Source: Bacteroidales bacterium (GTDB lineage: Bacteria > Bacteroidota > Bacteroidia > Bacteroidales > UBA932). Taken from it: a stretch of 48,633 nucleotides of DNA. The stretch spans positions 1-48,633 of the forward strand of contig JAFSMS010000042.1 in the NCBI GenBank assembly GCA_017447815.1, given 5' to 3'. This document shows positions 7,979 to 48,633 of this stretch, one piece after another. Below the pieces are notes generated by a model. The model had not been told where the DNA came from. It did not search any database and saw nothing but the letters and a program-made list of their open reading frames with translations. A program made the position numbers and the translations under genes. How positions within the stretch are numbered: position 1 is the first letter of the stretch; every line of letters begins with the position of its first letter.

Positions 7979-10180
7979 ATGAAAAAGATCCTTTTCGCTG
8001 CAGCCGCGGTGCTTCTGGCCGCCTGCAGCACCCCCCAGGCGGAAGATTACGCTGCCTATGTGAATCCCAAAATCGGCACCGGTGGTCACGGCCATGTGTT
8101 CGTCGGGGCCAATGTGCCCTTCGGCTTTGTGCAACTGGGCCCGACCAGCATCCCGCAGAGTTGGGACTGGTGCTCCGGTTACCACGACAGTGACAACACC
8201 GTCATCGGCTTCAGCCACACCCATCTTTCCGGCACCGGCATCGGAGACCTCTTTGATGTGACCGTCATGCCCGTCATCGGCCTCACCACCGCCGAGCGCG
8301 GCACCGAGGACCGGCCCGACCGCGGCGCCTGGAGTTATGCCGACCGCAGCCAGGAAGTCGCCGAGCCCGGCTATTACAGCGTCCCGTTGGAGCGCTATGG
8401 AATCAAGGCCGAACTCACCGCCACCTCGCGCGTGGGCTTCCACCGTTACACCTTCCCGGAGGCTTCGAACGCCGCCATCATCTTCGACCTGGAGAACGGC
8501 GGATGCTGGGATGACGTTACCGACGCCGGCTTCGACGTGGTCAAGAACGACGGCGGCAAAGTCATCGCCCTGGGCGGTTACCGCTACTCTTCCGGCTGGG
8601 CCAGGAACCAGAAAATCTTCTTCTGGGCCACCTTCTCCACCCCGCTGGAAAACTTCTCCGTAGAGCAGAATACCAGCCGCGACAGCGAACGCGGACGCGA
8701 ACGCAAGGCCCTCTACGGCCGATGCGACCTGGGCAACACCACCGCCGGACAGCAGATTCTGGTGAAGGTGGCCCTCTCCCCCGTTTCCGTCGAGGGCGCC
8801 AAGGCCAACATGACCGCCGAACTCTCCGGCTGGGACTTCGAGGCCGTCAAGGCCGCCGCCCGCACCGCCTGGAACAGCGAACTGGGCAAGGTGAAAATCG
8901 AAACCGACGATGACGACAAGCGCACGGTCTTCTATACCGCCCTCTACCACACCATGGTGGCTCCCAGCCAGTACAACGATGTGGACGGCCGGTACCGCGG
9001 TTCCGACGACGTGGTCCGTGAGGGAAGCTTCCAGAACTACACCACCTTCTCCCTTTGGGACACCTACCGCGCCGCCATGCCGCTGATGACCCTCATCCAT
9101 CCCGAGAAGATGAACGACATGGTGGCCACCATGTACCATATCTATAAAGAACAGGGAGACCTCCCGGTCTGGCACCTCATGGGCAATGAGACAGACTGCA
9201 TGGTGGGCAACCCGGGACTGATCGCGTTTGCCGACGCCGTGGTGAAAGGCTTCCGCGCCGGCCTCACCGACGATGAAATCATCGAAGCCATGACGGCTAC
9301 GGCCACCACGCCCGACCGCGGCCAGGATCTGCGCATGCAGTACGGCTTCATCCCGGCCGACCTTTACCACGAATCCGTGGCCAACGACATGGAATATGCC
9401 GTGGCCGACGGCGCCCTGGCCAATGCCGCCGAGTATCTGGGACGGAAGGACATCGCCGCCGCCTACCGCGAGCGCAGCCACTCCTACCGCCATTTCTGGG
9501 ACCCGGAACTCCAGTTCATGCGTGGCCGCAAGACCGACGGCAGTTTCACCGAGCCTTTCGACCCCATCTACTCCCGCCACGAAACGTCCGACTACACCGA
9601 AGGCACCGGCTGGCAGTATATCTGGCTGGTTCCGCAGGACGTGGACGGCCTGGTCGGCCTCTTCGGCAGCAAGGAGGCCATGGAAACGAAACTGGACGGC
9701 CTGTTCGAGGCCCCGGACCACATTGAGGGCGAAAACGCTTCCCCGGACATCTCCGGCCTGATCGGCCAGTATGCCCATGGCAATGAGCCGGGGCATCATA
9801 CCATTTACCTGTACAGCATGCTGGGCCGCCCGGACAAGGCTGCCGCCCGCCTGCATCAGGTTTACGGGCAGATGTATTTCAACGATGTGGAAGGCCTCGC
9901 CGGCAATGAGGACGTGGGCCAGATGAGCGCCTGGTACGTGCTGTCTTCCATGGGCTTCTACCAGGTGGAGCCGGCCTGCCCGCGCTTCTGGTTCGGCCTG
10001 CCGCTGTTCAGCAAAGAGGTCGTGAAGGTGGCCGGCGGTGAATTCACCATCAAGGCCGAAGGCCCCCTGGACGGCCACATCGCCTCCGTGAAACTGAACG
10101 GCCAGCCCTACGACCTGCCCTACATCGAATACAAGGACATCGTCGCCGGCGGCACCCTGGAATATACTTTGGTAAAATAG
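7979..10180 (+). CDS. GH92 alpha-1,2/1,3-type mannosidase lipoprotein
   Basis: Exo-alpha-mannosidase of glycoside hydrolase family 92, calcium-dependent and inverting, acting on N-glycans or yeast mannan outside the cytoplasm. 733 residues from the ATG at 7979; an in-frame ATG at 7967 lies inside a repeat and is unlikely. Lipobox LLAA-C. The N-terminal beta-sandwich begins YVNPKIGTGGHGHVFVGANV and contains GFSHTHLSGTG. The (alpha/alpha)6 domain carries GNETDCMVGNPG, the catalytic-acid motif HGNEPGHH (Glu603) and the catalytic-base region AGNEDVGQMSAWYV (Asp645). All hallmark motifs are intact. It is 23 bp from manA, so released mannose probably feeds ManA after phosphorylation. Exact linkage specificity cannot be read from the sequence. 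Confidence 0.95.
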   Translation: MKKILFAAAAVLLAACSTPQAEDYAAYVNPKIGTGGHGHVFVGANVPFGFVQLGPTSIPQSWDWCSGYHDSDNTVIGFSHTHLSGTGIGDLFDVTVMPVIGLTTAERGTEDRPDRGAWSYADRSQEVAEPGYYSVPLERYGIKAELTATSRVGFHRYTFPEASNAAIIFDLENGGCWDDVTDAGFDVVKNDGGKVIALGGYRYSSGWARNQKIFFWATFSTPLENFSVEQNTSRDSERGRERKALYGRCDLGNTTAGQQILVKVALSPVSVEGAKANMTAELSGWDFEAVKAAARTAWNSELGKVKIETDDDDKRTVFYTALYHTMVAPSQYNDVDGRYRGSDDVVREGSFQNYTTFSLWDTYRAAMPLMTLIHPEKMNDMVATMYHIYKEQGDLPVWHLMGNETDCMVGNPGLIAFADAVVKGFRAGLTDDEIIEAMTATATTPDRGQDLRMQYGFIPADLYHESVANDMEYAVADGALANAAEYLGRKDIAAAYRERSHSYRHFWDPELQFMRGRKTDGSFTEPFDPIYSRHETSDYTEGTGWQYIWLVPQDVDGLVGLFGSKEAMETKLDGLFEAPDHIEGENASPDISGLIGQYAHGNEPGHHTIYLYSMLGRPDKAAARLHQVYGQMYFNDVEGLAGNEDVGQMSAWYVLSSMGFYQVEPACPRFWFGLPLFSKEVVKVAGGEFTIKAEGPLDGHIASVKLNGQPYDLPYIEYKDIVAGGTLEYTLVK

Positions 10181-20077: not shown

Positions 20078-20701
20078 ATGGCCGACAATTATTTGGAAAA
20101 ACGCCAGCAGGAACTGGCATCCTCACAGAAGAAGGTGGTTTTCCGGAATCATCCTTCGCTGGATACCCTGCTGCACCGCAACCGGAGTTACAGGGGCTAC
20201 GACCCGGCCCGCAAGGTAACGGAGGAAGAACTCCGGAAACTGGTGGGCGTCGTGAGCCTTACGGCATCCGGAATGAACCGCCAGGTGCTCCGCTTCCGCC
20301 CCGTGCTGGAGCCGGAAAAGATTCTGCCGCACATTACCCTGGGAGCCGCCCTGCCTCAGGAACACCTGCCCAAGCCGGGCATGGAGCCGTCGGCCTTTTT
20401 GGTGGTGTGCAGCACCATCCCGGAAGACAAGGTGGTGGACATCGACCTGGGCTTCGCCGCGCAGAGCATTCTCCTGAAGGCCACGGAAATGGGGCTCGGC
20501 GGCCTGTTTATCCTCAATTTCCGCAAGGAGGCCGTCAAGCAGGCGCTGGGGCTTCCGCTGGAGCCCGTTGCCGTCATCGCCGTCGGCAAACCGGCCGAAT
20601 CGGTCTTTCTGCTCCCTTCGGACGGGGAAAACCTGTCCTATTACCGCAAGGACGGCGTGCACTATGTCCCGAAACTGACTGCTGAACACTTAATGATATA
20701 A
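20078..20701 (+). CDS. Nitroreductase-family flavoprotein
   Basis: FMN-dependent NAD(P)H oxidoreductase of the nitroreductase superfamily, cytoplasmic, physiological substrate unknown. 207 residues. The FMN-binding N-terminal signature is HRNRSYRGYDPARKVTEEEL with later SLTASGMNRQVLRF (phosphate and ring contacts). The middle has DLGFAAQSILLKATEMGLGGLFI, the usual helix plus glycine loop, and the end has VIAVGKPAES. It is placed 1 bp after the phosphate symporter and 6 bp before the Dcu-type carrier, so it is very likely in one operon with both, though the functional link is unclear. Confidence 0.9.
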   Translation: MADNYLEKRQQELASSQKKVVFRNHPSLDTLLHRNRSYRGYDPARKVTEEELRKLVGVVSLTASGMNRQVLRFRPVLEPEKILPHITLGAALPQEHLPKPGMEPSAFLVVCSTIPEDKVVDIDLGFAAQSILLKATEMGLGGLFILNFRKEAVKQALGLPLEPVAVIAVGKPAESVFLLPSDGENLSYYRKDGVHYVPKLTAEHLMI

Positions 20702-20707
20702 CGAACT

Positions 20708-22087
20708 ATGACCTTTACAATGATTGTGGAGCTGCTCATCGTACTGGCAGCATTGTATGTGGGCTCGCGGTATGGGTCCCTGGCCCTGGGCGCCATCAGC
20801 GGCATCGGCCTGGCCATCCTGGTCTTCGGCTTCGGCCTCAAGCCCGGGACGCCTCCCACGGACGTCATCTACATTATCATCGCCGCCGTCACCTGCGCCG
20901 GCACGCTGCAGGCATCGGGCGGCATGGACTGGATGATCCAGATTGCCGAAAAGATGCTCCGGAAACACCCGGAGCACATCACTTTCCTGGGACCGCTGGT
21001 GACGTTCTTCCTCACCGTGCTCGTGGGTACCGGCCATGTGGTCTATACCATCATGCCCATCATCTGCGACATCGCCCTCAAGAAGAACATCCGGCCGGAG
21101 CGCCCCTGCGGCGTGGCGTCCATCGCCTCCCAGGTGGGCATCACCTGCTCCCCCATCGCAGCGGCCGTCGTGGCCTTCGTGACCATTTCCAACGCCAACG
21201 GCTACATGGTAAGCATCCCCCAGGTGCTGATGGTCACCATCCCGGCCTGCCTCTGCGGCCTCATGTGCGCTGCCGCCGCCTCCTACAAACGGGGTAAAGA
21301 CCTGGACAAAGACCCGGATTTCCTCCAAAGGAAGTCCGATCCGGAAATGTACAAGTACATGTACGGCAACTCCGCCACCACCCTGGACAAGGTCATCACC
21401 AAGGAGGCCAAAGCCTCCGTCTATGTGTTCCTGGCCGCCCTCCTGGTAATCGTGGGCTTCGCCTTCTGCCAGATGATCCATGTATCGGGCGGGGACACCC
21501 TGGCCAAGGCCATCAACCTTCCCAAGATGAACATCTGCATCCAGATTATCATGCTCACGGCCGCAGCCGCCAACATCATGTTCTGCAAGGCCCAGCCCAA
21601 GAAAGCCGTGGCCGGTGCCGTGTGGCAGTCCGGCATGGTGGCCGTCGTGGCCATCTACGGCATCGCCTGGCTGGCCGATACCTACTTCGGGAACTACATG
21701 GACCAGATGAAACTCATGCTCACAGACCTCGTGACCCACTACCCCTGGAGCATCGCCTTCGTTTTCTTCCTGGTATCCGTGCTCATCAACTCGCAGGGCG
21801 CCGTCGTGGTGGCCATGCTCCCGCTGGCCTATGAACTGGGCATCGCCGGTCCCGTACTGCTGGGCGTTCTTCCCAGCGTTTACGGATACTTTTTCATCCC
21901 CAACTATCCGTCCGACATCGCCACGGTGAACTTCGACCGGAGCGGGACAACCGTCATCGGCAAGTATCTGCTGAACCACAGCTTCATGATGCCGGGGCTC
22001 ATCTGCGTAATCGTTTCCACCCTGGTGGGCTATCTGGTGACCAACGTGGTGTTTGCCGGCTACTTCGCCAGTTTTATCCAGCCGTAG
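20708..22087 (+). CDS. Anaerobic C4-dicarboxylate transporter, DcuA/DcuB family
   Basis: Inner-membrane carrier exchanging fumarate, malate or aspartate for succinate during anaerobic growth. 459 residues, close to the roughly 440 of E. coli DcuA/DcuB, with about ten to twelve hydrophobic helices. Family stretches include GTGHVVYTIMPIICDIALKK and IRPERPCGVASIASQVGITC near residues 115-155, and the late YFFIPNYPSDIATVNFDRSG segment with TVIGKYLLNHSFM. DcuA cannot be told from DcuB by reading. It is the last gene of the operon starting at 18388; palindromic element copy A follows 7 bp after the stop. Confidence 0.92.
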   Translation: MTFTMIVELLIVLAALYVGSRYGSLALGAISGIGLAILVFGFGLKPGTPPTDVIYIIIAAVTCAGTLQASGGMDWMIQIAEKMLRKHPEHITFLGPLVTFFLTVLVGTGHVVYTIMPIICDIALKKNIRPERPCGVASIASQVGITCSPIAAAVVAFVTISNANGYMVSIPQVLMVTIPACLCGLMCAAAASYKRGKDLDKDPDFLQRKSDPEMYKYMYGNSATTLDKVITKEAKASVYVFLAALLVIVGFAFCQMIHVSGGDTLAKAINLPKMNICIQIIMLTAAAANIMFCKAQPKKAVAGAVWQSGMVAVVAIYGIAWLADTYFGNYMDQMKLMLTDLVTHYPWSIAFVFFLVSVLINSQGAVVVAMLPLAYELGIAGPVLLGVLPSVYGYFFIPNYPSDIATVNFDRSGTTVIGKYLLNHSFMMPGLICVIVSTLVGYLVTNVVFAGYFASFIQP

Positions 22088-22093
22088 CCCCCT

Positions 22094-22203
22094 CGTGACA
22101 CGTAACTATCTTACACATAGCCATTTACGTATAATCCTCTGCGCAAAAAGCGCAGAGGATTATACGTAACACACACAACGTCAAGTACTTAGCAGCCACC
22201 TAT
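22094..22203. repeat. 110-bp palindromic element, copy A
   Basis: The core is a perfect 20-bp hairpin (22125-22144 with 22150-22169, loop AAAAA) reading TTACGTATAATCCTCTGCGC on the left. The flanks are partly complementary, with left end CGTGACACGTAAC and right end GCCACCTAT. The right end contains CTA (22200-22202), the stop TAG of the minus-strand kinase. It lies between convergent genes, so the hairpin probably acts as a two-way terminator. Copies B and C have the same layout: centre 53 bases from one end and 56-57 from the other. Confidence 0.9.
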
Positions 22204-23282
22204 ATTCCGATGAACTTCGACATGGCGGGCACTTGGTCCATGGCGGAGTGGAACAAGGCCACCTGGTTACGGGTGCGCACCAGGTTGTGCTCCGGGTATT
22301 TGATCTTGTAGTAGGTGTCTCCGTTGATATAGTCGGCAAAGAAGCGTACAGCCTGCATATAAGGGAAGAGGCAGGCGGCGTAAGGAAGGTTTTCTTTCTC
22401 GATGGGCGTGAGAAAACTGCCGGCCCCTTCCAGATACCCTTTGGTGAAGGCTTCAAAAATATCCATCCTGAGGGCCACTTTGCCGATATCCGGGTCATCC
22501 TCGGCCACGGTGTTTCCCGCAGTGCGCATGAAATCGCCGAAATCTGAGAACACGAACGAAGGCATGAGGGTATCCAAGTCAATGACACAAAGCACGTTGC
22601 CCTGGGCGTCAAACAGCATGTTGTTCACCTTGGTGTCGCAGTGGCAGATGCGCTTGGGCAGCAAACCTTCCCGATGCAGCCTTTCGGCCTTGCACATCTG
22701 CTCCTCGTACTTGAGCAGGTCGGCCAGGATGGACTGCACCTCGGGCTGGGACATCCTGCCGGCTTTATCGGCCGATACGGCCTCGTGCAACTGCCTTGCG
22801 CGGAGTTCCATGTTGTGGAAGTCGGGGATGGTCTCTCCCAACGTGTCCGGAATGTCGGAAAGCATCGCCTCGAAGTTGCCGAAGGCTTTGCCGGCATAAT
22901 AGGAATATTCCGGATTCACCGTGTTATGGGTATAAGCCCCCTCGATGAAAACCGACAGGCGCCAGTAGGCATTGCCGTCTGTCCAGTACGTCTTCCCCGT
23001 GCTCCTGCAGGGGATGAAAGTGAGCACTTTCCTGTCGATGTCCGGGTCTGAGGCAAGTTTCTTCCGGATATGGGCCGTCGCACAATCGATGTTGTGCTGC
23101 AACAGTTCCACATCCTGGAAAATGGCGTGGTTGATTCGCTGAAGAACATAGTTCCGGGGACCGGCCGTCTGAACCAGCAGGGTATCGTTGATCAGACCCT
23201 CTCCGAGCGGTTTCACGGCCAGCACCTGTTCTTCGACGGCAAACTGGCCGACAATGGATATGAGTTCATTCGTGTTAAGCAT
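22200..23282 (-). CDS. N-acetylhexosamine 1-kinase-like phosphotransferase (APH fold)
   Basis: Probable cytoplasmic kinase phosphorylating N-acetylglucosamine or N-acetylgalactosamine at C1, resembling NahK. 360 residues from the ATG at 23282; a TTG six bases earlier lies in the promoter box. The N-lobe is GEGLINDTLLVQTAGPRNYVLQRIN with a possible ATP-binding Gln48-Arg49. The catalytic loop is ICHCDTKVNNMLFD (Asp216, Asn221) and the metal site VIDLDTLMP (Asp235). These match the aminoglycoside-phosphotransferase fold. No lacto-N-biose phosphorylase or epimerase is adjacent. It has its own promoter (23286-23317) and is bounded by palindromic elements on both sides. Other sugar or choline kinases of the fold remain possible. 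Confidence 0.82.
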   Translation of the reverse strand: MLNTNELISIVGQFAVEEQVLAVKPLGEGLINDTLLVQTAGPRNYVLQRINHAIFQDVELLQHNIDCATAHIRKKLASDPDIDRKVLTFIPCRSTGKTYWTDGNAYWRLSVFIEGAYTHNTVNPEYSYYAGKAFGNFEAMLSDIPDTLGETIPDFHNMELRARQLHEAVSADKAGRMSQPEVQSILADLLKYEEQMCKAERLHREGLLPKRICHCDTKVNNMLFDAQGNVLCVIDLDTLMPSFVFSDFGDFMRTAGNTVAEDDPDIGKVALRMDIFEAFTKGYLEGAGSFLTPIEKENLPYAACLFPYMQAVRFFADYINGDTYYKIKYPEHNLVRTRNQVALFHSAMDQVPAMSKFIGI

Positions 23283-23285
23283 ATC

Positions 23286-23317
23286 CAAAGGTACAAAAAA
23301 AGAAAGCAGAATACAAA
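23286..23317 (-). promoter_or_regulatory. Promoter of the hexosamine-kinase-like gene
   Basis: On the minus strand: TTTG (23314-23317), a 20-base spacer, TACCTTTG (23286-23293). The ATG (23282-23280) begins 3 bases after the -7 box, so the message is almost certainly leaderless if this promoter is used. It starts 12 bases from the edge of palindromic element B. Confidence 0.8.
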
Positions 23318-23329
23318 TGCCCGCTATTC

Positions 23330-23439
23330 CGTGACACCTAATTCACTGTGCAGTAAGCATTTACGCAAAATCCTCTGCGCAAAAAGCGCAGAGGATTAAA
23401 CGTAAACGGCTGAAGGATAGCGTGTTAGCGGCCACCTAT
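23330..23439. repeat. 110-bp palindromic element, copy B
   Basis: Same orientation and length as copy A. Core arms TTACGCAAAATCCTCTGCGC (23361-23380) and GCGCAGAGGATTAAACGTAA (23386-23405) pair as 12 bp, a 3-base internal mismatch and 5 bp, around AAAAA. Left end CGTGACACCTAA, right end GGCCACCTAT, whose CTA (23436-23438) is the TAG stop of rnfA. It should end the rnf transcript before the next gene's promoter. Confidence 0.9.
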
Positions 23440-24035
23440 TTAACCATTCCGCTGAAGCCCATGAAGGCGAGGGCGAGGATACCTACGCTGATGATGGCGA
23501 TAGGGACACCCTTGAAGGCCTTGGGAACATTGTTCAGGGCCAGGTGCTCACGGATCCCCGCGAAAATCACCATGGCAAGGCCGTATCCCAGCGAAGTGGC
23601 AAAAGCGTACACCAGGGCCTGACCCAGATTGAGCATGCCGCCGGGCACAAAGGCGAACTCCTTGGTAACCACATTGATGGCAACGCCCAGCACAGCGCAG
23701 TTGGTGGTAATCAGGGGAAGGAAGATGCCCAGGGCCTGATACAGGGACGGGGACACTTTCTTGAGCACGATCTCTACCATCTGCACCAGGGCGGCAATCA
23801 CCAGGATGAAGGCGATGGTCTGCAGGAAGGTGATGCCGAAGGGCACCAGCAGGTACTGGTTGATGAGGTAGGTCACCAGCGTAGCCAGCGTAATCACGAA
23901 GCATACGGCCATGGACATGCCCGTTGCCGTGGACAGTTTATTGGAAACGCCCAGGAAGGGGCAGATACCCAGGAACTGAGCCAGGACGATATTGTTGACG
24001 AAAATCGCCGAAATGATAATCAGAAAATACTCCAT
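23436..24035 (-). CDS. rnfA: Rnf complex subunit A
   Basis: Integral membrane subunit of the Rnf ferredoxin:NAD oxidoreductase, which pumps Na+ or H+. 199 residues with six membrane helices, the family's standard size. Conserved RnfA/NqrE stretches: [21 protein letters not shown] near residues 13-33 (with the Cys that helps hold the membrane Fe-S centre) and [11 protein letters not shown] near 110 (second such Cys). It is the last gene of rnfBCDGEA, starting 3 bp after the rnfE stop. Its stop codon TAG is contributed by palindromic element B. Confidence 0.95.
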
Positions 24036-24038
24036 AGC

Positions 24039-24629
24039 TTAGTTCTTTTTAAGGTATTTGTTAAACAGGACCATAAGGTAGCCCAGGCACAGGAATGCGC
24101 CGGGAGCCATGACGAAGGCCAGCATGCCGTCGTTGCCGCCGATGAAGTTGAAGCCGAACACGCTGCCGGAGCCCAGGATCTCGCGGACCAGGCCCAGCAC
24201 CGTAAGCGAGCAGGTGAAGCCCAGACCCACGCCCAGGCCGTCACAGGCACTCTCCAGCACGCCGTGCTTGTTGGCAAAAGCCTCGGCGCGGCCCAGCACG
24301 ATGCAGTTCACCACGATAAGCGGAATGAACAGGCCCAGGGTCTCATACATGGCCGGCGTATAGGCCTGCATGAGGAACTGGAGCAGCGTCACGAAAGTGG
24401 CAATCACAACGATATACACCGGGATGTGAACCTTGTCCGGCACCACGGGAGCGATGGCCGATATGGCCATGTTGCTGAGCACCAGCACAAAGAGCGTGGC
24501 AAGACCCATCGAAAGGCCGTTGATGGCCGATGTCGTGGTGGCCAGCGTAGGGCACATGCCCAGCAGAAGGACGAACGTGGGGTTGTTCTTGACCAGTCCG
24601 TCGGTAATCAGTTTGAACTTGTTACTCAT
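24039..24629 (-). CDS. rnfE: Rnf complex subunit E
   Basis: Membrane subunit of the Rnf complex, paired with RnfA by inverted topology. 196 residues from the ATG at 24629 (MSNKFKLITDGLVKNNP); an upstream extension in this frame falls inside rnfG and is rejected. Typical features are NNPTFVLLLGMCPTLATTTS near residues 15-34 (Cys ligand region) and PLIVVNCIVLGRAEAFA near 100-120 (second Cys), with six membrane helices. It overlaps the end of rnfG by 8 bp, indicating translational coupling. Confidence 0.94.
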   Translation of the reverse strand: MSNKFKLITDGLVKNNPTFVLLLGMCPTLATTTSAINGLSMGLATLFVLVLSNMAISAIAPVVPDKVHIPVYIVVIATFVTLLQFLMQAYTPAMYETLGLFIPLIVVNCIVLGRAEAFANKHGVLESACDGLGVGLGFTCSLTVLGLVREILGSGSVFGFNFIGGNDGMLAFVMAPGAFLCLGYLMVLFNKYLKKN

Positions 24630-46513: not shown

Positions 46514-46633
46514 ACTAACTAAATTAAGCCGCATATTTACTACAAAAATTACACCTGCCACCACATCATTTTAAAATACTTTTTAAAACTTGCGATTTCG
46601 GGGCGAAAAACCGTTGTTCCGCATTATTTTTGC

Positions 46634-46641
46634 TATCTTTG
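46634..46641 (+). promoter_or_regulatory. -7 box for lgt
   Basis: TATCTTTG ends 6 bases before the ATG at 46648. A TTG at 46614-46616 is 17 bases upstream, shorter than usual. If used, the mRNA is leaderless or nearly so. The 134 bp between tolC and lgt starts hold both divergent promoters; for tolC only an imperfect TAATTTTTG is seen. Confidence 0.5.
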
Positions 46642-46647
46642 TGGTCT

Positions 46648-47532
46648 ATGGAATATTTGGTAGTCAATTGGAACATAGACCCTGTCATCTTCCACCTGGG
46701 AGGCATCGAACTCCGGTGGTATTCGGTCTTGTTTGTCAGCGGGTTCATTCTGGGCTGGTATATCATGCGCAGTTTCTTCCGCCGCGAAAAAATCAATGAA
46801 AGCCTTCTGGACCCCATGCTGTACATGCTGCTTATCTGCACCATCGTGGGCGCCCGCCTGGGGCACTGTCTCTTCTATCAGCCGGACTATTATCTGGGCA
46901 GTTGGCAGGGCTTCTGGGAAATCTTCATGCCCTGGAAGGGGGGTCTCGCCAGCCATGGCGGCACCATCGCCATCCTCCTGGGCATCTGGTGGTATGCCCG
47001 GAAATATGGCAGGAAGAACGACTTCGACTACGTCTGGGTGTTGGACCATCTGGTGATTCCGGTCGCTTTCGCAGCCTGCTTCATCCGTCTGGGAAACCTC
47101 TTCAATTCAGAGATTTACGGCGGTCCCACCAGCCTTCCCTGGGGTTTTGTCTTCCAGCGTAACGGAGAAACCGTTCCCTGCCATCCCACCCAACTCTACG
47201 AAGGAGGCACCTATCTCCTGCTGGGCATCGTGCTCATGTGGCTGTACTGGAAAAAACTGGACAAACTGTACCGCGGCACCTTCGTGGGCCTGTTTCTCAT
47301 CGTGTGCTTCGGCAGCCGCTTCCTCATCGAATTCGTGAAAAACCCGCAGGTGGAGTTCGAGCAGGACATGGTCCTCAACATGGGGCAGCTCCTCAGCATC
47401 CCCTTCGTACTGCTGGGTATCGGCTTCCTGGTGTATGCCTATGTGAAAAAACTTCCCGCCGCAGCCGTCCATCCGGAGAGAACGGCGCAGAAGAAAGATC
47501 CCACCCACTTCGCCCACAGCATCGAGAAATAG
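46648..47532 (+). CDS. lgt: Prolipoprotein diacylglyceryl transferase
   Basis: Inner-membrane enzyme attaching diacylglycerol to the lipobox Cys of pre-lipoproteins, the first step of lipoprotein maturation. 294 residues from the ATG at 46648; an ATG at 46630 precedes the promoter box and is not used. Seven hydrophobic helices. Essential residues: LASHGGTIAI (His103) and the Lgt signature FIRLGNLFNSEIYG (Arg147, Asn150, Glu155). Also HPTQLYEG near 188. The lgt stop TAG (47530-47532) is the edge of palindromic element C. Confidence 0.95.
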   Translation: MEYLVVNWNIDPVIFHLGGIELRWYSVLFVSGFILGWYIMRSFFRREKINESLLDPMLYMLLICTIVGARLGHCLFYQPDYYLGSWQGFWEIFMPWKGGLASHGGTIAILLGIWWYARKYGRKNDFDYVWVLDHLVIPVAFAACFIRLGNLFNSEIYGGPTSLPWGFVFQRNGETVPCHPTQLYEGGTYLLLGIVLMWLYWKKLDKLYRGTFVGLFLIVCFGSRFLIEFVKNPQVEFEQDMVLNMGQLLSIPFVLLGIGFLVYAYVKKLPAAAVHPERTAQKKDPTHFAHSIEK

Positions 47533-47639
47533 GGTGGCCCATAACCTCCTGCCACTCAGCCATTTACGTACAATCCTCTGCGCATTTTGCGCAGAGGATT
47601 GTACGTAAGTGCTTCAGGGATAGCGCGTTGTGAGTCACG
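47529..47639. repeat. 111-bp palindromic element, copy C (inverted)
   Basis: Opposite orientation to copies A and B. ATAGGGTGGCC end on the left includes the lgt stop TAG; CGTGAC end on the right (GTCACG, 47634-47639). The core is a perfect 20-bp stem (47564-47583 with 47589-47608) around ATTTT. Compared with copy A, one pair changes from T-A to C-G on both sides (GTATAAT/ATTATAC against GTACAAT/ATTGTAC), a compensating change. Lies between convergent lgt and pgk; likely a two-way terminator. Confidence 0.9.
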
Positions 47640-47655
47640 CGCACGGAAGAGGGGC

Positions 47656-48633
47656 TTAGTCCTGGATGGCGGCGATGCCGGGGAGGACTTTGCCTTCGAT
47701 GGCTTCCAGCATGGCGCCGCCGCCGGTGGAGACGTAACTCACCTTGTCGGCATAGCCCATCTGGGTAACGGCGGCCACGGAGTCGCCACCACCGACGAGG
47801 GTGTAGGCACCATTCTTGGTGGCCTCGGCCAGGTCTTCAGCGATCTGGAGGGTACCCTTGGCGAAGTTCGGAAGCTCGAAAACGCCCACGGGACCGTTCC
47901 AGAGGATGGTCTTGGAGCTCAGGATAATCTTCTTCCAGTTCTCCAGGGAAGCGGGTGCGGCATCCATGCCCTCCCAGTCGTCGGGAATCTCGGTGATGGG
48001 GAAAATCTTGCGGGGCGTGTCGTTGTCGAAGGCCTGGCCGCAGACGGTGGCCACGGAGAGGGACAGGTTTACGCCGCGCTCCTTGGCTTCCTTCATAATC
48101 TCCAGTGCATCGGGAATGAGCTCGTCCTCATGCAGGGACAGGCCGATATGGCCGCCCTTGGCCTTGATGAAGGTATAGCCCATGCCGCCGCCGATGATGA
48201 GGTTGTCCACCTTGCCGACGAGGTTCTTCAGGACGGCCAGTTTGGAACTCACCTTGGAGCCGCCGATGATGGCGGTCAGGGGACGCTGTGCATTCTTGAG
48301 CACATTGTCGATGGCCTTGATTTCGCCTTCCATCAGGTAGCCGAACATCTTGTCATTGGGGAAGTACTCGGCGATGAGGGCGGTGGAACCGTGGGCGCGG
48401 TGAGCGGTACCGAAAGCGTCGTTGATGTAGCAGTCGGCATAGCTGGCGAGGGTCTTTACGAACTCCTTCTGGGAGGCCTTCACGGCAGCCTTGGCGGCTT
48501 TCTTTTCCTCGTCGGAGGCATCCTCGGCCAGGCCGCGGGGCTTGCCTTCTTCCTCGGCGTAGTAGCGGAGGTTCTCCAGGAGGAGGGCCTCACCGGGCTT
48601 CAGGGCATCGGCCTGGGCCTTGGCCTTCTGGCA
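47656..48633 (-). CDS. pgk: Phosphoglycerate kinase, N-terminus beyond the window
   Basis: Glycolytic enzyme making ATP from 1,3-bisphosphoglycerate. The last 325 residues are present; the start is beyond position 48633 (about 90 residues missing), and an internal GTG at 48483 is not the start. Seen: [71 protein letters not shown], and the nucleotide-binding end [17 protein letters not shown] with [18 protein letters not shown]. No inactivating change seen. Confidence 0.95.

Follow-up and report, generated by a model that had tools for sequence, protein, structure and literature searches.

A dispersed palindromic element in a Bacteroidales family and the divergent RAYT-like transposase that probably serves it

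The DNA analysed here, referred to below as the window, is a stretch of 48,633 nucleotides from a Bacteroidales bacterium (assembly GCA_017447815.1, contig JAFSMS010000042.1), in which a palindromic element occurs three times, each time next to the ends of genes:

22094..22201, no strand assigned: element copy 1, flanked by a convergent DcuA/DcuB-family gene (20708-22087, plus strand) and an APH-family gene (22200-23288, minus strand)
22125..22169, no strand assigned: central hairpin of copy 1, 20-bp stem and 5-base loop; its species-specific core is AATCCTCTGCGC/GCGCAGAGGATT
23330..23437, no strand assigned: element copy 2, adjoining the TAG stop codon of an Rnf-Nqr-family gene (23436-24035, minus strand), upstream of the APH-family gene
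23361..23405, no strand assigned: central hairpin of copy 2, a 12-bp perfect inner stem, three mismatches, then 6 bp
47532..47640, no strand assigned: element copy 3, between convergent LGT-family (46630-47532, plus strand, its TAG abutting) and PGK-family (47656-48483, minus strand) genes
47564..47608, no strand assigned: central hairpin of copy 3, 21-bp stem and 3-base loop

The Rnf-Nqr-family gene is presumably nqrE, and the locus of the first two copies is called nqrE-dcuB below, names that we assume from Pfam families. The three copies lie where a preliminary description of this DNA had placed them, and they align from end to end as homologous over the whole length. A stem of 20 bases with a 5-base loop, ascribed there to all three, is true of copy 1, while copies 2 and 3 depart from it as listed above. 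The fixed polarity that had been read from unequal distances between the core centre and the two ends (53 versus 56-57 bases, with an end GCCACCTAT) dissolves on closer reading: the extra bases are the TAG stop of the adjoining frame, and the window copies appear polar because such stops abut one side of all three (frames 22200-23288 minus, 23436-24035 minus and 46630-47532 plus), the consensus of 44 copies being symmetric. For each window copy the real sequence gives a better fold than any of 200 shuffled versions, whether computed for DNA or for RNA (z -4.4 to -9.3), and a tRNA is the sole Rfam match in the window at the gathering cut-off.

According to our analysis these copies belong to a family dispersed over the whole genome. 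In the 2.5-Mb assembly the core pattern CCTCTGCGCANNNNGCGCAGAGG occurs at 44 distinct sites and its reversed control at none, and a sequence-only profile built from these 44 copies recovers 51 sites, every one of them on both strands and with an E of 1.8e-12 or lower (among the best 150 of 686 candidates scored, 102 of the 106 listed matches are strong, the other four having E 2.5e-4 to 0.21). Three of the 51 fall inside the window, and the density is about one copy per 49 kb. The defined unit of fixed length that had been proposed is thereby borne out, and a chance resemblance of three terminators, unalignable beyond the core, is at odds with 51 sites and a full-length alignment. Searching the genome and its relatives by profile, as had been suggested, gave about 50 copies at home and the same frame with other cores in relatives.

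The same core half-stem is found in 44 of the 51 profile sites. Core positions 3-11 are invariant among the 44 copies by construction, because these were collected with the exact-core pattern; positions 12 and 14 are invariant as well, and 13 nearly so. Of the seven sites added by the profile five were read, and four of these have GAGC for GCGC, as is often seen in copies of a related genome, G005. The consensus is GTGRC-N3-TAA-N4-YTGATNNTCAR-N4/5-TTAC, then the hairpin, then the mirror image, symmetric about the hairpin centre, with a unit length of 107-110 bp. In the gapless alignment of the 44 copies (one of which carries a one-base insertion) T-51, G-50 and A-43 of the TAA are invariant, T-36 and A-28 occur in 43 of 44, and the stretches between the boxes are near random. 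Pairing of the outer arms exceeds the shuffled expectation at position 15 (34 versus 21.6) and slightly at position 19 (39 versus 35.8); from position 23 outward no excess above about 2 sd is seen, position 27 lying below expectation, and covariation of the outer-arm partners, tested over the 44 copies, is not supported. As the arm boxes have no covarying partners, it is their sequence that is conserved, while in the core it is the hairpin. No target-site duplications were seen by eye in the 44 copies with their flanks.

Many copies lie at gene ends. A long reading frame (150 aa or more, unvetted as a gene) ends near 32 of the 44 copies and on both sides of 17, and in 10 of 44 copies, as in 8 of 33 copies in G005, the TAA of the element doubles as the stop codon of a gene. 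It would be logical to ask whether such elements are gene-end structures under selection, that is, bidirectional terminators or stabilisers of mRNA 3' ends, to which the link with a transposase described below would be secondary. Besides the positions at gene ends, the hairpin forms as RNA, and in another genome of the set, G028, a T-tailed hairpin, recognised by eye, occupies the nqrE-dcuB spacer at the place of the G019 element. We nevertheless consider this explanation unlikely: there are 0 terminator-like sites (stem plus T-run) in 20600-24200, the region of copies 1 and 2, so the element does not qualify there as an intrinsic terminator, and termination alone leaves unexplained the shared core half-stem, the unpaired conserved arms and the co-occurrence with the transposase.

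The nqrE-dcuB locus is differently built in related genomes. The own genome (G000) has element, APH-family gene, element; G019 has one element; G028 has the T-tailed hairpin; and G005 has an element together with another gene, presumably a phosphorylase as judged from DNA alone. The APH-family gene (22200-23288) is thus absent at that place in G019, G028 and G005. At a second locus (L026, 9913-12805) three reading frames, which from their translations we take to be blaI, blaR1 and a TPR-like gene, lie between elements at 9859 and 12846; G005 lacks them, its outer flanks being joined by one element. At a third (L085/L027) the right flank of the G005 element is in place and its left flank matches G000 inverted, some 3 kb off, so that the edge of a rearrangement falls at the element.

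Such losses might suggest scattered attC-like recombination sites, with a site-specific recombinase moving modules of gene plus element, since single elements are left at the junctions when the L026 frames or, in G019 and G028, the APH-family gene are missing, and since stop codons abut or overlap the elements. Integron attC sites stand in cassette arrays behind IntI and fold by paired arms. The copies here are dispersed and their outer arms unpaired, the associated enzyme is a Y1/HUH protein, and plain recombination between repeats accounts for the losses equally well, which makes this alternative very improbable; recombination between element copies is the simplest reading of the gene-module losses.

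The preliminary description had found no transposase nearby, and indeed none is seen beside the window copies (family searches were run on 10 window proteins); the own genome, however, has three Y1_Tnp matches, one of which (C3:122737), on another contig, lies between two elements. It encodes a divergent Y1/HUH protein of about 306 aa with a long C-terminal part, which we call RAYT-like, and the search for a RAYT-type enzyme that had been advised has thus led to a gene with flanking elements. In a tree of 41 of the 48 same-genus Y1 matches the RAYT clade, the own genome's gene included, comprises 19 reading frames with support 100/100. H58, H60, Y118, N121 and N122 (HxH, Y, NN) are invariant in the 17 rows of an alignment, A4, from which L177 and L190 were left out; P follows NN in 11 of the 17, own genome included, and H or A in six. 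The HUH plus single-tyrosine motif with Y---NP that marks RAYTs of REPtrons is therefore present. The best NCBIfam match of the own genome's protein is REP_Tyr_transpos (NF047646; 49.1 bits, E 5.1e-13), below that family's cut-off of 80; Pfam Y1_Tnp is above cut-off in all six clade members scanned, and matches in a search of solved structures are weak throughout, the best being the IS200-type transposase 2ec2 (E 0.014). With a profile made from A4, full-length members turn up in 22 of the 37 same-genus genomes and in none of 24 others (E below 1e-80; at 1e-10 one further genome of the order, G051, matches); within the family, 20 of the 149 genomes have them (E threshold 1e-60). Another group of Y1 proteins with a long C-terminal part occurs in the same genus (L157 and L158 in G000, L166, L179, L183, L191), the last four of which have other long palindromes alongside, for example with stems around GCCGTTAACGTGCA, perhaps further repeat families.

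The exact own core is absent from 60 relatives, and the degenerate frame with a different core is present in other species of the same Bacteroidales family. Elements of G005, which has about 75-92% DNA identity to the own genome at shared loci, have the core CCTCGGC and ends CTGGYC; those of G019 have TTTCTCGTTC, one copy (L107, G019:C19:103778-103884) bearing a second core type, AATCCTCCTCGGAA; still other cores occur in other genomes. The core stem covaries, with double-sided changes in 15 of 16 predicted pairs over 28 elements; at columns 47-70, for instance, CG is found 12 times across species, GC eight, UA four and AU four, none being broken. A model (R2) of these 28 elements, taken from 11 genome handles and seven named MAGs, all RAYT-bearing, with 13 elements coming from beside RAYT genes, detects elements in 29 of the 37 genomes of the genus and in none of the 24 from other genera in the order (1e-3), as well as in 39 of 149 family genomes. 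Another model, R1, at E up to 0.1 gives weak matches in five of the 24 genomes outside the genus (E 0.014-0.097).

The transposase gene is flanked by the repeats, as in a REPtron. Among the 51 RAYT loci fetched (these being a part of all RAYT loci, many with less than 1 kb of flank, and L199 and L207 having been dropped because they duplicate G005 and G019), an element lies no further than 1 kb from a gene end in 47 (R2, E up to 0.05): 34 on both sides, seven upstream only and six downstream only, with four having none, whereas plain arithmetic (51 sites in 2.5 Mb) puts chance adjacency at about 4%. The downstream element begins exactly 14 bases before the end of the RAYT gene in 16 of the 51 loci, which makes the element's TAA box the stop codon of the gene. 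Fifteen genomes that contributed nothing to R2 supplied the 16 loci L214-L229, of which 14 have an element nearby; four of the 16 were picked after adjacency had been seen, and the remaining 12 have it in 10. In other genera the flanking elements are as close as 82 and 19 bases (L214) or 71 and 8 (L215). RAYT loci with no nearby element are L170, L203, L226 and L229.

Presence of the two partners is likewise linked. In the 149 family genomes elements (E up to 1e-4) occur in 19 of 20 with RAYT versus 20 of 129 others (Fisher 2e-12). Counting both strands among the best 61 (genus set) or 25 (family set) candidates per genome, 10 or more matches are found in 16 of 20 RAYT-bearing family genomes versus four of 129 others, and in 19 of 22 RAYT genomes of the same-genus set versus two of 15 (p 1.3e-5). 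There are exceptions in both directions. Elements with no detected RAYT occur in the genus in G030 (at least 61 matches, L230/L231 at G030:C31 and G030:C66) and G011 (19), and in 20 family genomes, four of which (G139, G140, G158, G188) have 10 or more matches; RAYT with few or no elements is seen in G015 (1), G036 (0), G020 (5), G090 (0) and G196 (1), the frames of G036 and G020 having an internal stop. These data also bear on the idea that the elements are immobile binding sites of a chromosome-organising protein, of which BIME/gyrase or IHF platforms are examples. The sequence-conserved degenerate boxes and the regular spacing of about one copy per 49 kb would fit such a role; patchy presence, turnover of the core between close species and dependence on RAYT presence speak against it, and we regard it as the least probable of the alternatives.

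The repeat type also co-varies with the RAYT. A genome (RUG13929) whose RAYT is 77% identical to the own genome's has the own genome's core, and UBA3764 and UBA2716 have another core in common. Four core labels, placed on 13 of the 18 rows of a RAYT tree that likewise leaves out L199 and L207, need 4 changes, the minimum being 3 and the shuffled mean 6.5, and 0 of 200 shuffles are as low. Two core groups have a single origin with full support and two do not; the group TCTCGTTC taken alone shows no clustering beyond shuffles on this tree (82 of 500 as low).

How the core changes can be followed at shared sites. Eleven G005 elements, from 11 of 16 pairs listed, are co-located with G000 elements, as judged from both flanks in six cases and from a single flank in five. 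Over 46 variable arm positions the 11 orthologous pairs have a mean identity of 0.447 versus 0.381 for other pairs (p 0.0016), the strongest pair (L089/L015) reaching 0.61. Taken singly, three of the 11 reach p <0.05, three are under the null mean, and reversed orientation fits better in four; with such mixed results recurrent insertion at the same sites is possible too. One G005 copy (L100) has one core half from each species, G000 and G005, and together with the arm agreement and the GAGC variants it hints at change in place. Since orthologous elements share some arm bases and differ in the core, about 50 hairpins would have to be converted together, the RAYT copying its preferred hairpin into existing frames; we regard this as a rather doubtful possibility. 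If true, the transposase would be a genome-wide sequence editor, beyond a mover of whole copies.

From our analysis and the data discussed above, we consider it very probable that the element is a mobile palindrome, non-autonomous and REPIN-like, on which a cognate Y1/HUH RAYT-like transposase encoded elsewhere in the genome acts in trans, and that this enzyme probably copies or moves the elements. By analogy with known RAYTs, it would recognise the folded central hairpin through its species-specific sequence, and the degenerate flanking boxes as sequence, and it would cut and rejoin single-stranded DNA and so spread copies, which may persist mainly at gene 3' ends. RAYT and core change together between species. 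Having often a 3' copy, whose TAA box is its own stop codon, and an upstream copy, the RAYT gene forms with its elements a REPtron-like unit. In this picture the family, its anatomy and its association, co-occurrence and co-divergence with the RAYT are observed, while cleavage, movement and the pairing of particular boxes with particular parts of the enzyme are inferred. As to movement, no pair of empty and filled sites with clean boundaries, which the preliminary description had hoped to compare, was seen, the one near comparison (nqrE in G028) having the T-tailed hairpin instead. We found no description of this element in the open PMC literature in a search that was not exhaustive.

RAYT systems have been studied mostly in Proteobacteria, and the clade described here is a divergent one, in a Bacteroidales family of gut and rumen, that offers many species and core types for comparison. 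The recognised part of the repeat appears to have two portions, a central hairpin that changes fast and a degenerate frame that changes slowly, so that, with these many species and core types, the change of partners between enzyme and repeat becomes directly testable by swaps of core and RAYT. In the passages of earlier work drawn on here, RAYT systems are among the few known single-copy domesticated transposases that maintain repeat populations for long (PMC3116915, PMC8049555).

The proposal of a small non-autonomous element of REP/BIME type is supported by the RAYT-like Y1 transposase flanked by elements in the own and many related genomes, and has to be amended in anatomy, as size, foot and hairpin position are unlike those of canonical REPs. 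A canonical REP has 20-40 bp and GT[AG]G at the hairpin foot; the unit here has 107-110 bp, and its outer GTGR, replaced by CTGG in G005 and by GTAA in G034, is separated from the stem by about 27 bases or more. With the REPINs of Pseudomonas fluorescens (Bertels and Rainey 2011, PMC3116915, in the parts used here) the element has in common that palindromes of about 100 bp and fixed length are dispersed in intergenic places, that each type matches a specific RAYT and that copies stand beside it. REPINs have two invariant 16-mers at their ends and a variable paired spacer (PMC3116915, same parts); our unit is inverted, symmetric and hairpin-forming, but its central hairpin is the part most conserved within a species, and its arms are unpaired degenerate boxes. 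In the Stenotrophomonas system (Nunvar 2010, PMC2817692, in the portions consulted) two palindromes likewise flank the RAYT and change with it while staying palindromic; in REPs a short hairpin bears a GT(A/G)G head, whereas the element here has no conserved head and a transposase of about 306 aa.

Closest by phylum is the Bacteroidetes TnpA-Y1 subclass 2.6 (Quentin 2018, PMC6006769, as far as the portions used here describe it), which also has repeats with no GT[AG]G and copies elsewhere in the genome. Its repeats are said to have 'atypical secondary structures', and its proteins a median of 179 aa with NH[LIV]H, WQ and YIH[QN]NP; on protein features, compared by eye (alignments A4 and A7 against Table 1), the enzyme here with its about 306 aa, F for W and Y--NN(P) falls outside it, and judged by these motifs it does not match any TnpA-Y1 subclass in that table. 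Subclasses 2.1 and 2.3 and the TIRYTs (PMC6006769, PMC3733652) have a long C-terminal part as our RAYT has; in the passages concerned they are reported without REPs, and their YIELNP, Y[IV]HLNP and YVDLNP are absent from it. The system works like a RAYT/REPtron system, as far as analogy goes, and in gene arrangement is one; we read it as a new anatomy for a RAYT/REPIN-like system, with no conserved GT[AG]G foot, a central hairpin and a transposase with a long C-terminal part.
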